From Phycisphaerales bacterium (lineage in GTDB: Bacteria > Planctomycetota > Phycisphaerae > Phycisphaerales > SM1A02), in contig SIAM01000002.1 of the NCBI GenBank assembly GCA_009691785.1, positions 1-64,000 on the forward strand: a DNA stretch of 64,000 nucleotides, in the 5' to 3' direction. Both the position numbers and the translations under genes were made by a program. Position 1 is the stretch's first letter. Every line of letters begins with the position of its first letter. Shown here in pieces: positions 33,343-39,697 of the stretch. The notes under the pieces were generated by a model. It saw nothing but the letters and a program-made list of their open reading frames with translations. It did no database searches and was not told the origin of the DNA.

Positions 33343-34368
33343 ATGCGACTTGGCGTGGATGTCATGGGCGGCGACAATGCGCCCGACGAGATCCTGAAGG
33401 GTTGCATTGCCGCGCTTCCAAAGCTTGCGGCTGACGATGAACTTGTTTTATACGGCGATCGACGCGTCATTGAAGAAACATTCAGTGAGCGCGGAATTTC
33501 CGACAAGCGCCTGACCATTGTCGCCACCACCGAAGTCATTGGCATGGAAGAGTCACCTGTTGAGGCGATTCGTTCCAAGCGCGACGCGAGCATGGTTGTG
33601 ATGGCGAAAGACGCCAGCCCAAAAAATGAAAATAAACTGCACGCCATTGTGAGCGCGGGCAACACCGGCGCCATGGTGAGCGCGGCGCAAATGCACATGC
33701 GTCGCATTCCAAATGTGGTCCGACCTGGCATTGCCGTCACCGTTCCAACTTTCGCTGGCGCCGTGGTGCTGATCGATGTTGGAGCCAATATCGAGCCAAA
33801 ACCAGTGCATTTGGCGCAGTACGGAGTGATGGGCGCCATCTACGCCAAGATTGCGTGCGGCATTGAAAATCCGCGCGTGGCCATTATGAATGTGGGCGGC
33901 GAAGAAGCCAAGGGCACCGATGACATGCGACTTGCGCGCGACATGCTGCGCGCCGCCGCCGGTTTAAATTTCACCGGCTTTGTTGAAGGTCGCGGCGTGT
34001 TTGATGGCGAAGCCGATGTGGTGATCACCGATGGCGTGGTTGGAAACGTCATGATTAAACTTGCCGAAGGACTTTCCAAAGGCATCTTCAAAGCGCTGGC
34101 GCGTGAAGTGTTGGCGATTGATCCAGAACTTGCGGCGCGCCTTGAGCCCGTTGTAAAAAGTTTGTACGCCAAACATGACTATCACGAGTTTGGTGGCGCG
34201 CCTCTTCTTGGCGTGAACGGCATCGCGCTGATTAGCCATGGCTCCAGCCAAGCGCGCACAATTATGAACGCCATCACGCGCATGAAGATGTTCGCGGCTT
34301 CAAACATCAACGCGCAAATGAGCGAGCAACTTGGTCTTATGCGTATTTCGGACGAGGTCTCTGCGTGA
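33343..34368 (+). CDS. plsX: Phosphate acyltransferase PlsX
   Basis: PlsX makes acyl-phosphate from acyl-ACP for the PlsY acyltransferase, the first step to phosphatidic acid. The 341-residue product has the family start MRLGVDVMGGDNAPDEILKG, the AIVSAGNTGAMVSAAQM segment, and ALISHGSSQARTIMNAI near the end. It starts three bases after rpmF and overlaps fabH by four bases. The enzyme is peripheral to the membrane in other bacteria. Confidence 0.97.
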   Translation: MRLGVDVMGGDNAPDEILKGCIAALPKLAADDELVLYGDRRVIEETFSERGISDKRLTIVATTEVIGMEESPVEAIRSKRDASMVVMAKDASPKNENKLHAIVSAGNTGAMVSAAQMHMRRIPNVVRPGIAVTVPTFAGAVVLIDVGANIEPKPVHLAQYGVMGAIYAKIACGIENPRVAIMNVGGEEAKGTDDMRLARDMLRAAAGLNFTGFVEGRGVFDGEADVVITDGVVGNVMIKLAEGLSKGIFKALAREVLAIDPELAARLEPVVKSLYAKHDYHEFGGAPLLGVNGIALISHGSSQARTIMNAITRMKMFAASNINAQMSEQLGLMRISDEVSA

Positions 34369-35369
34369 TACAGCCCTCCGGCGCATGCGGCGTCCGGATG
34401 GCGGGCACTGGGTCCGCTGTTCCGGAAAAAATTCTCACCAACGACGATTTGTCGCGCATTCTTGACACCACGGACGAGTGGATCACGCAGCGCACTGGCA
34501 TTCGTTGCCGCCGCGTGAGCGATCAATCAAAAGAAGGCACATTTACGCTGTCGCGCGACGCTTTGTGCCGTGCGCTTGATGCCGCCTCCATGAAGGCATC
34601 CGACCTGGATTTGCTGATCATTGGAACATGCACCGCGGAAATGCGCTGCCCAAGTTTGGCCTGCCGAGTGGCCGGCGATGTGGGCGCCATCAACGCCGGC
34701 GCATTTGATGTGACCGCGGCCTGCAGCGGATTTGTCTACGCGCTGAATGTCGCCGAGACAATGGTGCGCTCGGGTCGATATAAAAATGTTGGCGTGATTG
34801 GCGCCGACGCCATGAGCACCATGGTCGACTACCAAGATCGCTCGGTCAGTATTTTATTTGGCGACGCCGCGGGCGCCGCAATTCTTGTGCCCGACCCAGA
34901 CTTGAACCGCGGATGCATTTATCAAACGCTGGGCTCGGATGGCCGCGACTGGACTGGTTTGTACATTCCAAATCGCGCGCAGGAAGTTCCAGAAGCCGAC
35001 AAGGACAATCCAATTCGTCTTGGCTATTTGCGCATGGATGGCCGCGAGATTTTTAAATTTGCCGTGACCAAATTTCGCGAAGTGATCGCCGACGCGCTGG
35101 AGAAGACCGGACTGACCGCCGACGACATTAGTCAAATTGTGTGCCACCAAAGCAACGCGCGCATTATTGAGAACGCCATTGAAAAATTAAAATTGCCGCG
35201 TGAAAAAGTTTTGATCAACATTGATCAATATGGAAATTCCAGCTCTGGAAGCGTTGGCTTGTGCCTGGATCAGGTGTGGCGCGCTGGCAAAGTTCCCGCG
35301 GGAAAGCCCATGATTTTGGTGGCTTTTGGTGGCGGCGTGACTTGGGCTAGCAATGTGTGGAATGTTTAA
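34365..35369 (+). CDS. fabH: 3-oxoacyl-ACP synthase III (FabH)
   Basis: FabH condenses acetyl-CoA with malonyl-ACP to start fatty-acid synthesis. The 334-residue product has the catalytic Cys in FDVTAACSGFVYAL, His in VCHQSNARIIENA and Asn in NIDQYGNSSSGSV, with a C-terminal FGGGVTWASNVW. The start is GTG at 34365, overlapping the plsX stop by four bases (GTGA), which implies coupled translation. The N-terminus GVRMAGTGSAVPEKILTNDDL fits the family start after a short leader. Confidence 0.96.
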   Translation: MIQPSGACGVRMAGTGSAVPEKILTNDDLSRILDTTDEWITQRTGIRCRRVSDQSKEGTFTLSRDALCRALDAASMKASDLDLLIIGTCTAEMRCPSLACRVAGDVGAINAGAFDVTAACSGFVYALNVAETMVRSGRYKNVGVIGADAMSTMVDYQDRSVSILFGDAAGAAILVPDPDLNRGCIYQTLGSDGRDWTGLYIPNRAQEVPEADKDNPIRLGYLRMDGREIFKFAVTKFREVIADALEKTGLTADDISQIVCHQSNARIIENAIEKLKLPREKVLINIDQYGNSSSGSVGLCLDQVWRAGKVPAGKPMILVAFGGGVTWASNVWNV

Positions 35370-35448: not shown

Positions 35449-36417
35449 ATGAGTCTTAATGCAATTTTCTTGGCGCCAGGTCAAGGCGCGCAAAGCGTGG
35501 GCATGGGCAAGTCGTGGCACGACGCAAGTCCGGCCGCGCGCGCCATCTTTGAAGAGGCCAATGACATTGCCCACTTTCATGGCGACGGCACGCTAAGTCA
35601 ACTTTGCTTTGAAGGTCCCGCTGAGCGGCTGAATCAAACAGATGTCAGCCAGCCCGCGCTTTTAGTGTGCGGCATTGCCTGCCACGCTGCGCTTGTGGAG
35701 CGACACGGTGAGATTGAAATTTCCGGAACGCTTGGACTTTCGCTTGGCGAGTACACGGCGCTGGCATTGGCGGGCGCGTTCACCTGGCAAGACGCGCTGC
35801 GACTTGTTCTTATTCGCGGCCGTCTTATGCAAGAAGCTGCCGTTGCAAGCCAAGGTGGAATGGTTGCTCTGATTGGCGCCGACGAGGAAAAAGCCAACGC
35901 GGTGTGCTTGGCCGCGGCGCAAGATGGAGTGCTTGTGCCCGCCAACTTCAACGCGCCGGGACAAATTGTGTTAAGCGGTCACGCTGTGGCATGCGATCGG
36001 GCCTGTGTTGAAGCCAGCAAACTTGGCCTGCGCGCCAGCAAACTGACCGTGGCGGGCGCGTTTCATAGCCCACTCATGCAACCCGCCGCACACGGCATGA
36101 CCAAGGCCTTGGCGGATGTGCATATTCACCCGCTGAAATGCCCAGTGTGGAGCAATGTCACGGGCAAGCCGCACCACATGAATGAGCCGCAAAGCGTGCG
36201 GAAATTGTTGGTGGATCAACTGGTGCAACCCGTGCGTTGGGACGCTTGCTGCGCCGATATGATTGCATGGCGCGCATCCAAGGAACTGGAAGGCATTTGC
36301 AAGGTGTATGAACTTGCGCCAGGCACCGTGCTGCGCGGATTGATGCGACGAATTCACAAAGCCACTGAGGTCACGACACATGATTCAATTGCGGAAACTC
36401 ACAATGCAAAAAGTTAA
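35449..36417 (+). CDS. fabD: Malonyl CoA-acyl carrier protein transacylase
   Basis: FabD moves malonyl groups from CoA to ACP. The 322-residue product has FLAPGQGAQSVGMGKSW at the start, the nucleophile in GLSLGEYTALALAGA, the catalytic His in AGAFHSPLMQPA, and FNAPGQIVLSG. The ATG is preceded by taggag. It follows fabH after 79 bases. The lipoprotein frame begins inside its last codons, so the two genes overlap slightly. Confidence 0.96.
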   Translation: MSLNAIFLAPGQGAQSVGMGKSWHDASPAARAIFEEANDIAHFHGDGTLSQLCFEGPAERLNQTDVSQPALLVCGIACHAALVERHGEIEISGTLGLSLGEYTALALAGAFTWQDALRLVLIRGRLMQEAAVASQGGMVALIGADEEKANAVCLAAAQDGVLVPANFNAPGQIVLSGHAVACDRACVEASKLGLRASKLTVAGAFHSPLMQPAAHGMTKALADVHIHPLKCPVWSNVTGKPHHMNEPQSVRKLLVDQLVQPVRWDACCADMIAWRASKELEGICKVYELAPGTVLRGLMRRIHKATEVTTHDSIAETHNAKS

Positions 36418-37183
36418 TTTAGTTTCAACATTGCGCGCCACGCTTTCATGCGCCTCTCTCTTGACACTGGTCATTGCGTGCGGCAAGACCGAATCCAACC
36501 AGCAACCCGAGGCCGCAGAAGCGCAGCCGGTGGCGGTGGTGGAAGAGGCGCCCAAAGAATCACTCAACGACATGATGAAGCGCCTTGGCATTGATAAGCG
36601 CGTTCGCGTTGAGGATGGCGACAAAGCCCCAAGCAATCCCATTCAAGCCGAAGTTATCGTTGTGTTTTTTGACGCCATGGTGCACGGCAACGCGGCTAAA
36701 TTAAAGCCGCTGCTCAGTCCACAAGACCAAGCCGTGTTGGCTGATATGCAAGCAAGCGGCCAATGGAAATCCGCCACAGAAAATATCAACCGCGTGAACG
36801 TGGGTTGGATCACGGGCACTGAACCAGACACGCTTTCAGTGTTGGGGTTTTTCTCAACTGGCGATACATTCGCCGCGCAACTGTGGTCACTTTCATCTGG
36901 AGCAAATGATCAGCCTTTGGTCATGACCGCTCTTGCGTCGCCCCAAAAAATTGAAGAAAAACTACAAGGAAGCAAGACTGCCGATCGCATCAAGCAATGG
37001 TTAACATTGAATAAATTAGAGCTAAGCGAAGCCAAAAAACCCGACGAAACAATTGAGGTTCCTCAACAAGATCGCTCGATCAAGGGGGACGCGCCCGGCC
37101 GTTCAGGTTCGGACGATGATCCGCCGCGCCCCTCTTCACGCCCAGGCAAGAGAGCCCCCAGCGACCCTGTTGAAAAACCATAA
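36380..37183 (+). CDS. Lipoprotein within the fatty-acid cluster, function unknown
   Basis: The product, 267 residues from the first ATG, has a hydrophobic stretch and a lipobox (TLVIAC) ending in Cys34. An ATG at 36404 would give a more compact signal peptide (MQKVNLVSTL...) but has a weaker ribosome-binding site than tgagg before 36380. The mature protein has a Gln/Glu/Pro-rich start and an alpha/beta middle part. The tail is Pro, Arg and Ser-rich (DDDPPRPSSRPGKRAPSDP). No family is recognised. Its place between fabD and fabG suggests co-expression but not necessarily a role in lipid synthesis. It overlaps the fabD end by up to 38 bases. Confidence 0.75.
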   Translation: MIQLRKLTMQKVNLVSTLRATLSCASLLTLVIACGKTESNQQPEAAEAQPVAVVEEAPKESLNDMMKRLGIDKRVRVEDGDKAPSNPIQAEVIVVFFDAMVHGNAAKLKPLLSPQDQAVLADMQASGQWKSATENINRVNVGWITGTEPDTLSVLGFFSTGDTFAAQLWSLSSGANDQPLVMTALASPQKIEEKLQGSKTADRIKQWLTLNKLELSEAKKPDETIEVPQQDRSIKGDAPGRSGSDDDPPRPSSRPGKRAPSDPVEKP

Positions 37184-37231: not shown

Positions 37232-37259
37232 TTGACATCCATATGAACTCATAAATAAT
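37232..37259 (+). promoter_or_regulatory. Probable promoter of fabG
   Basis: A perfect -35 hexamer TTGACA (37232-37237) is followed after 16 bases by AATAAT (37254-37259), one mismatch from the consensus. Transcription would start near 37266, about 45 bases before the proposed fabG start. Confidence 0.65.
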
Positions 37260-37310
37260 TTTATTAGCTACACTTCTGCACGAATTGAAATTTCTTCAAC
37301 AGGAGATTGC

Positions 37311-38048
37311 ATCATCGAAAAGCGAGTAGCCATTGTCACTGGCGCCAGCCGAGGAATTGGAAAAGCCATTGCGCAACGCTTGGCAAAAGATGGCCGCCAT
37401 GTTGTTGGCGTGGCGCGCACCGATGCCAACCTTGCCGGTGTGATAGCCGCCGTGCAAGCCGATGGCGGTTCCATGGAAGGCATGGCTTGTGATGTGGCCG
37501 ATGGCGTTGCGCTTGCCGCGTTGGTTGAGGCTGTTGCGGAAAAGCATGGTCGCCTAGATATTTTGGTGAACAACGCCGGCATTACCCGCGACGGATTGCT
37601 GCTGCGCATGAGCGATCAAGATTTTGACGAGGTGATTCAAGTGAATTTACGCAGCGCGTTTGTCACCTGCCGCGCCGCCGCGCGCCCCATGATGCGCGGA
37701 CGCTGGGGCCGCATTGTGAATGTCGGCAGCGTGAGCGGTTTGATGGGAAATGCGGGGCAAGTGAACTATTCCACCGCCAAAGCCGCGCTTGTTGGCATGA
37801 CCAAATCAATCGCCCGCGAGCTTGGTTCCAAAGGCTTAACCGCCAATTTGATTGCGCCAGGATTTATTGAAACCGACATGACCGCTAGTTTGCCGCCACA
37901 AGTGAAGGAGGCTGCCCTGCCAAGCATTCCGCTTCGGCGCTTTGGTCTTCCCGCGGATATCGCCGCTGCGGTGGCGTTTATCACTAGCGAAGAAGCGAGT
38001 TACATCACGGGGCAAGTCCTTGCCGTTGACGGCGGCATGTCCATGTGA
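37311..38048 (+). CDS. fabG: 3-oxoacyl-ACP reductase FabG, probable ATC start codon
   Basis: FabG reduces 3-oxoacyl-ACP with NADPH in each elongation cycle. The 245-residue product from 37311 has the NADPH-binding TGASRGIGKAIA, NNAGITRDGLLL, the catalytic Ser in VGSVSGLMGNAG and YSTAK, and the C-terminal SYITGQVLAVDGGMSM. The ORF track starts at a TTG (37380) after the cofactor motif, which cannot give a working enzyme. The frame is open from 37236 with no ATG, GTG or TTG before the conserved motif. aggag at 37301-37305 lies five bases before ATC 37311 (eight before ATC 37314), so translation probably starts at one of these (MIEKRVAIVTG or MEKRVAIVTG). A sequencing or assembly error that removed an ATG is the alternative. 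Confidence 0.85.
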   Translation: MIEKRVAIVTGASRGIGKAIAQRLAKDGRHVVGVARTDANLAGVIAAVQADGGSMEGMACDVADGVALAALVEAVAEKHGRLDILVNNAGITRDGLLLRMSDQDFDEVIQVNLRSAFVTCRAAARPMMRGRWGRIVNVGSVSGLMGNAGQVNYSTAKAALVGMTKSIARELGSKGLTANLIAPGFIETDMTASLPPQVKEAALPSIPLRRFGLPADIAAAVAFITSEEASYITGQVLAVDGGMSM

Positions 38049-38135: not shown

Positions 38136-38393
38136 GTGACCGAGCAAGAGATTGAAACAAAAGTAATTGGAATCGTCGCTGAACAAATGGGTGTTGATAA
38201 AGATCAGATCACCCGCGACACCAGTTTCACCAATGACCTCAACGCCGACAGCCTTGACACGGTCGAGCTTGTTATGGAGCTTGAGGAGGAATTTGACACT
38301 CAAATTCCGGATGAGCAAGCCGAAAAGATCCACACCGTGGGTCAAGCGGTGGACTTCATCAACAAGAACTTATCCAGCGGCAAGGACAAGTGA
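38136..38393 (+). CDS. acpP: Acyl carrier protein
   Basis: ACP carries the growing acyl chain on 4'-phosphopantetheine. The 85-residue acidic product has the attachment motif [13 protein letters not shown], in which the Ser is modified. The start is GTG at 38136, with taggaga eight bases upstream. It lies 87 bases after fabG and 41 before fabF, the usual fabG-acpP-fabF order. Confidence 0.97.
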
Positions 38394-38434: not shown

Positions 38435-39697
38435 ATGCGAACCATCACGCTTCGCCGCGTCGTGGTCACAGGACTCGGCGCAATCACCGATGTCGGTCTG
38501 GATGTCGACTCTTTTTGGGCTTCCCTTTTGGCGGGCAAGTCTGGAATTGGACCCATTACCAATTTCCCGCAAAATGAGGAGTGGACAACACGTTTTGGCG
38601 GTGAAGTCCGCGGCTTTGATTTGGAAAAACATGCGGGCATTGATGGGCGCGAATCCAGACGCATGGACAACTTTGCCATCTACGGCTTGGGCGCGGCAAC
38701 TCAGGCTGCGAACGACTGCGGAATTGATTTCACAACTGGCGATCCTGATCGCCGCGGCGTTGCTGTTGGCAGCGGCGTTGGTGGCATCAACACAATTGAG
38801 ACTGGCTTGTACAAACTTTTGGAGAGCGGCCCGCGCAAAGTGAGCCCGTTCATTGTTCCGCGACTCATGGTCAACGCATGCGCTGGTCAAATTAGCATTC
38901 GCTACAACTTGCGTGGCTTCAACATTGCCACGGCAACGGCTTGCGCCTCTGGCTCGCATTCAATCGGCGCCGCGTACCATGCCATTCAACGCAATGACGT
39001 CGATGTCATGTTCGCTGGCGGCGCTGAAAGTGGAATTGGTCCCGTGTGCGTGGCGGCTTTCAGCGCCATGAAAGCGCTCAGCACTCGCAACGATGATCCA
39101 CCGAAAGCCAGCCGTCCATTTGACAAGGACCGCGATGGATTTGTGCTGGCCGACGGCGCCGCCATTTTGGTGCTGGAGGAATTGGAGCACGCCAAGAAGC
39201 GCGGCGCTAAGATTTACGCGGAAATTATTGGCTACGGTTCCAGCGGCGACGCATTTCACATTGCGGCGCCAGATGAGCAAGGTTCCGGCGCCAAGCGCTC
39301 CATGGCATGGGCGCTGCGCGATGGGCAAGTGAATCCCGAACAAATTGGCTACATCAACGCGCACGGAACCAGCACTCCGCTAGGTGACCGCGCTGAGGTG
39401 AATGCGGTCAAGCAACTCTTCGGCGCGCACGCTTACACATTAGCTATGAGCAGCACCAAAGGTGTCACGGGTCACGCGCTTGGCGCGGCGGGCGGCATTG
39501 AAAGTATCGCCACCATCTTGGCCATTCACAAAGGCGTCTTGCCCCCCACCATTAATTTGGACAACCCCGACGAGGGAATGGATTTAAATTTTGTGGCGCA
39601 CACGCCGCAAGAACGCAAACTTGATTTTGCCATCAACAATTCATTTGGATTTGGCGGTCACAACACCAGCCTTATCTTTTGCCGCTTCAACGGCTAA
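38435..39697 (+). CDS. fabF: 3-oxoacyl-ACP synthase II (FabF)
   Basis: FabF condenses malonyl-ACP with the growing acyl-ACP. The 420-residue product has the start RRVVVTGLGAITDVGLDV, the catalytic Cys in TATACASGSHSIGAA, and the two His in NAHGTSTPLGD and STKGVTGHALGAAGGIE, with NNSFGFGGHNTSLIF at the end. The length is standard for KAS II. It ends the fatty-acid cluster; a GH15 gene starts 27 bases later. Confidence 0.97.
   Translation: MRTITLRRVVVTGLGAITDVGLDVDSFWASLLAGKSGIGPITNFPQNEEWTTRFGGEVRGFDLEKHAGIDGRESRRMDNFAIYGLGAATQAANDCGIDFTTGDPDRRGVAVGSGVGGINTIETGLYKLLESGPRKVSPFIVPRLMVNACAGQISIRYNLRGFNIATATACASGSHSIGAAYHAIQRNDVDVMFAGGAESGIGPVCVAAFSAMKALSTRNDDPPKASRPFDKDRDGFVLADGAAILVLEELEHAKKRGAKIYAEIIGYGSSGDAFHIAAPDEQGSGAKRSMAWALRDGQVNPEQIGYINAHGTSTPLGDRAEVNAVKQLFGAHAYTLAMSSTKGVTGHALGAAGGIESIATILAIHKGVLPPTINLDNPDEGMDLNFVAHTPQERKLDFAINNSFGFGGHNTSLIFCRFNG

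Follow-up and report, generated by a model that had tools for sequence, protein, structure and literature searches.

How is a gene translated when its reading frame offers no usual place to begin? The window that we analysed, a stretch of 64,000 nucleotides of the Phycisphaerales contig SIAM01000002.1, raises this question for fabG. The frame follows a TGA stop at 37233-37235 and is open from 37236 to its own stop at 38046-38048. Between the preceding stop and the NADPH cofactor motif TGASRGIG it holds no ATG, GTG or TTG at all. The earliest canonical codon is the TTG at 37380, which lies within the Rossmann fold, so that a start there would cost the protein its cofactor site. The first-pass annotation had described this open frame, the aggag at 37301-37305, the ATC codons at 37311 and 37314 and a first TTG past the cofactor site, and all of these were confirmed in the sequence. 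It had left the choice between a rare AUC start and a wrong base in the assembly.

The product was identified as 3-oxoacyl-ACP reductase by the TIGR01830 equivalog model, with 318.9 bits against a cut-off of 297.75. Its top matches among solved structures are FabG proteins, which start within a few residues of the AUC-encoded N-terminus. Among the other FabG-like proteins of the source genome, the next match is only 36% identical, and no second close FabG was found. The gene sits among FAS II genes in the order plsX-fabH-fabD-ORF-fabG-acpP-fabF (Table 1). The ORF between fabD and fabG gave no match in the NCBIfam search; its N-terminus looks lipoprotein-like by eye, and proteins of about 25-60% identity occupy the same place across the family. 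Downstream, acpP lies 3' of fabG in nearly all relatives examined. The acpP start is GTG in nearly all family members where the gene was located (38136 in the window, and the relatives' loci), and ATG in three outgroup genomes examined (G040, G048 and G052) and in genus g19; the start type has changed in this family for both fabG and acpP.

Table 1 Features of the fabG region, in window coordinates.
Feature	Position	Strand	Basis or remark
plsX	33343..34368	+	TIGR00182
fabH, GTG start	34365..35369	+	TIGR00747
fabD (best match)	35449..36417	+	TIGR00128, 237.6 bits, just below the equivalog cut-off of 260.9
Conserved ORF between fabD and fabG, family unknown	36380..37183	+	same place in relatives
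Promoter TTGACA-N16-AATAAT	37232..37259	+	present, not conserved in genus
TACACT, likely -10 element of the fabG promoter	37269..37274	+	conserved in genus
Shine-Dalgarno AGGAG	37301..37305	+	8 nt ahead of the conserved ATC
First ATC, alternative start, less likely	37311..37313	+	codon variable among relatives
ATC, almost certain start codon, conserved across the family	37314..37316	+	aligned codon in relatives
fabG, 3-oxoacyl-ACP reductase, 244 codons plus stop, AUC start	37314..38048	+	start placed by conservation
acpP, acyl carrier protein, GTG start and own SD	38136..38393	+	TIGR00517
fabF	38435..39697	+	TIGR03150

We compared the locus with named relatives found by sequence (Phycisphaerales included) and with genomes of the same genus and family, the family set comprising 103 genomes in 42 genera. 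At the codon aligned with 37314-37316, 66 of these 103 genomes carry ATC and one carries ATT. Over all loci tallied, ATC stands there in 71, ATT in one (G063) and ATA in one (L013). The locus L008, whose FabG protein is 96% identical, has the identical string CAACAGGAGATTGCATCATCGAAAAGCGAGTAGC. The codon before the conserved ATC is variable (GCC, ATC, GTC, ACC, CTC, CCC, TTT and others), and since this is the position of the first ATC, the conserved one is the second. The AUC start put forward in the first-pass annotation is thus strongly supported, with the favoured codon at 37314 and not at 37311. An assembly error (C for G) masking an ATG at either position would take one base change in a draft genome of 77 contigs, but the same ATC recurs in dozens of genomes assembled independently of one another, whose proteins range in identity from 97% to about 60%. 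This refutes the wrong base suspected at 37313 and leaves the explanation a negligible probability.

A second possibility is that translation begins at a non-canonical codon further upstream, or is coupled to the upstream gene, and that the conserved ATC is an internal isoleucine codon. The window itself would allow this, because its frame is open for 26 codons upstream of the ATC. In relatives, however, a stop closes the frame only 1, 1 and 2 codons upstream (G112, G137 and G119, respectively), which excludes such a start in several of them, and in 21 of the 71 ATC loci the frame is closed within 20 codons upstream without any ATG, GTG or TTG. Five genomes of two genera (G182, G183, G187, G191 and G194) have ATG at the very same codon, giving proteins that begin, for example, MDKRVAIVTG or MEKRVAIVTG. 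The codon usage is also unlike that of internal isoleucine codons: all eight AT-richer members of the genus have ATC at codon 1 yet use ATT at isoleucine codons 7, 15 and 19. Pooled over the loci, ATC makes up 71 of 73 codons at position 1 versus 186 of 251 internal isoleucine codons (Fisher p = 2e-6, with phylogeny ignored). The conserved ATC is therefore not an internal isoleucine codon, and we consider an upstream start very improbable. Translational coupling to the ORF at 36380-37183 was judged unlikely, as a gap of 130 nt separates its stop from the ATC. On this comparative evidence, the AUC at 37314 is almost certainly the fabG start. As in the conserved AUH-start genes, no ATG, GTG or TTG is available for the conserved N-terminus, and the same non-canonical codon stands at the aligned place in relatives together with an SD.

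The signals ahead of the start were then considered. A 4-nt SD word precedes 89% of the AUC/AUU/AUA fabG starts, compared with 32% of ordinary genes, and a 5-nt word 56% compared with 14%, the background being 182 canonical-start genes of the source genome. Around the start itself, C precedes AUC in 86% of 73 loci and the second codon begins with GA in about 95%, a conserved context of C-ATC-GA. The TTGACA-N16-AATAAT promoter pointed out earlier is present in the window but is not conserved in the genus, where the conserved -10-like element is TACACT, found aligned or nearby in 9 of the 12 members whose upstream sequence was compared. TACACT is likely the -10 element, and the transcription start site deduced from it would leave a leader of about 33 nt. 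The folding energy of the leader RNA at 37281-37370 is not below that of shuffled sequences (z = 0.41), indicating no unusual structure there. With a leader this short, if TACACT is the -10 element, and no unusual fold, the start codon itself would be the likeliest control point.

Could AUC simply be an ordinary start codon in this clade, through a special initiator tRNA or a general widening of start recognition? We compared 455 kb of the source genome with 1.2 Mb of the genus relative G014; the comparison of starts covered 235 kb of orthologous genes, and conservation at the second position was demanded in order to curb shadow frames. Eleven of the 204 ortholog pairs lacked a canonical start common to both members close to the conserved N-terminus. 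Inspection by eye assigned nine of the eleven to an ordinary start, or to overlaps, tRNA or shadow frames, and only fabG and infC remained without a canonical start. Located in 28 of the 31 genomes searched, infC encodes IF3 itself and in this genus has an apparent non-canonical start, beginning ATC TCA GCA or ATT AGC behind an SD. In the source genome (L157, G000:C58) the apparent ATC of infC lies about 22 codons ahead of RINDRIRI, with ATT in other genus members, and an internal ATG 10 codons after the ATC is the one that gene finders would choose. That infC likewise uses AUC/AUU would suit a widened start recognition. However, the sole initiator-type tRNA found has the anticodon CAU, with one copy in each of five genomes, the non-canonical starts among the 204 pairs are confined to these two genes, and for infC they are also known from unrelated bacteria (PMC5472188). 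Judged by these 204 pairs and five genomes, AUC is no ordinary start in this clade, and a special tRNA or clade-wide widening is hardly credible.

The AUC start at fabG is widespread in the family and also subject to turnover. Counting ATT as well as ATC or ATT moved a few codons upstream, AUC/AUU starts occur in 74 of the 103 genomes and in 32 of the 42 genera. A canonical start (ATG, GTG or TTG) was found in 25 genomes, and four were ambiguous: G069 and G080 have ACC at the codon, and G036 and G113 have a canonical codon 1-2 codons upstream. In both G069 (L121) and G080 (L124), the ACC follows AAGGA, and a TTG lies immediately ahead of this SD. A FabG tree computed with the first 12 residues left out requires a minimum of 13 switches between canonical and non-canonical starts. 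Given these switches and the 25 canonical genomes, the AUC/AUU start is not indispensable. In other families of the order, no locus examined has ATC at the aligned codon, and most have an ATG near the N-terminus. Within the family, several N-termini have been remodelled, and their apparent start is again ATT (G022, G102 and G095) or ATC (G100, G019 and G141). These moved starts are mostly preceded by GGAG, with a less clear SD in G141. G180, the sister of G022, has ATG at the place that matches the ATT start of G022, and the weakest of the moved cases is G028, with an ATG seven codons ahead of its ATC. Since remodelled N-termini again carry AUC/AUU, it seems to be the kind of codon that is kept or regained, and not merely an inherited triplet.

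These observations led us to propose the following mechanism. The ordinary initiator fMet-tRNA (anticodon CAU) would start fabG at the AUC of 37314-37316, pairing with A and U while the mismatch at the third base is tolerated, and the upstream AGGAG would offset part of the loss. The AUC would be a deliberately weak start that holds FabG synthesis low. IF3 disfavours initiation complexes formed at codons other than AUG/GUG/UUG, and infC uses this discrimination for its own control. By rejecting such complexes at fabG, IF3 would keep FabG low, and a drop in initiation fidelity or in IF3 would let FabG rise, as happens for infC itself. The acpP product must be made in excess. Since the next genes after fabG are acpP, which starts with GTG behind an SD of its own, and fabF, the weak fabG start plausibly also sets a low FabG:ACP ratio from a shared transcript. 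As a sole reason, this stoichiometry was rejected: acpP also adjoins fabG downstream in relatives whose fabG has ATG, so it is not the whole story. Moreover, FabG is a housekeeping enzyme that the cell needs, so a strong promoter or SD would have to compensate for any strong repression.

The account as a whole, an AUC start at 37314 that is deliberately weak, checked by IF3 and rescued by the SD, we hold to be quite probable from the sequence comparisons. We infer the low yield, the sensitivity to IF3 and the stoichiometric purpose. Selection of the weak start for expression control is likely, and we lean slightly towards IF3 as the main factor acting on it. IF3-type control, raised as conceivable in the first-pass annotation, gains some ground from infC, which has ATC/ATT starts in the same genomes and is the only other such gene among the 204 pairs. 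The best surviving alternative is an AUC start without IF3-based control, namely a tolerated weak start that was fixed early in the family, with the strong SD making up for its weakness. The enrichment of the SD would agree with this, and the switches on the FabG tree show that AUC can be lost. Against it, the retention of AUC/AUU in 32 of the 42 genera speaks for selection on start type, apparent new AUC/AUU starts arose where the N-terminus moved, and every lineage could reach ATG by a single base change. We therefore consider the tolerated weak start unlikely and retain the deliberately weak, IF3-checked start as the more probable reading.

In this form fabG would be a new addition to the small known class of genes with conserved non-canonical starts (infC, pcnB, sigR and ccpN). 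The pcnB gene of E. coli has a rare AUU start that limits its yield. A rare AUU start is also found in Borrelia pncA/bbe22, an enzyme gene like fabG, which was misannotated with a later start (PMC13398362). The resemblance to infC lies in an AUC-type start with an SD in the same genomes, and Streptomyces infC also starts with ATC (PMC5472188); FabG, however, is no initiation factor, so direct autoregulation is impossible and a link to IF3 would be one-way. In Streptomyces, IF3 represses sigR at its GTC start and thereby holds SigR below the level of its partner RsrA (PMC5472188). Both sigR and fabG combine a conserved non-canonical start and a strong SD with a following partner gene needed in excess (rsrA and acpP, respectively), but sigR encodes a transcription regulator with GTC in one genus, whereas fabG encodes a core metabolic enzyme with AUC in 32 genera, and IF3 control is demonstrated for sigR and proposed for fabG. 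The AUA start of ccpN (Staphylococcus/Bacillus) and the AUU start of Staphylococcus cvfC1 are likewise conserved AUH starts with extended SDs, and in S. aureus the AUU/AUA starts of cvfC1 and ccpN cut the yield (PMC13009471). CcpN is a regulator and CvfC1 a small protein, with starts mapped experimentally and reduced yields measured, while the fabG start was placed by sequence comparison. In vitro, IF3 counteracts weak pairing at the third base, as in AUU/CAU (PMC10158994). Our search of the open-access literature turned up no fabG described with a non-AUG start.

Conserved non-canonical starts are known for very few genes, and those with demonstrated control are mostly regulators or IF3. Within this class fabG is unusual as an essential metabolic enzyme gene with broad conservation and repeated use of AUC/AUU. 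Gene finders restricted to ATG, GTG and TTG will truncate or miss it, as happened before with sigR, infC and Borrelia pncA. A more speculative idea, which we regard as doubtful, is that selection keeps AUC/AUU so that membrane-lipid synthesis follows the condition of translation initiation: a shortage of IF3 relative to ribosomes would raise FabG and IF3 together. If true, fidelity at the start codon would by itself couple fatty-acid synthesis to ribosome supply, with no dedicated regulator involved. With AUC/AUU spread over 32 genera, and apparently regained when the N-terminus shifts, the choice of start codon becomes a plausible way of setting enzyme levels.
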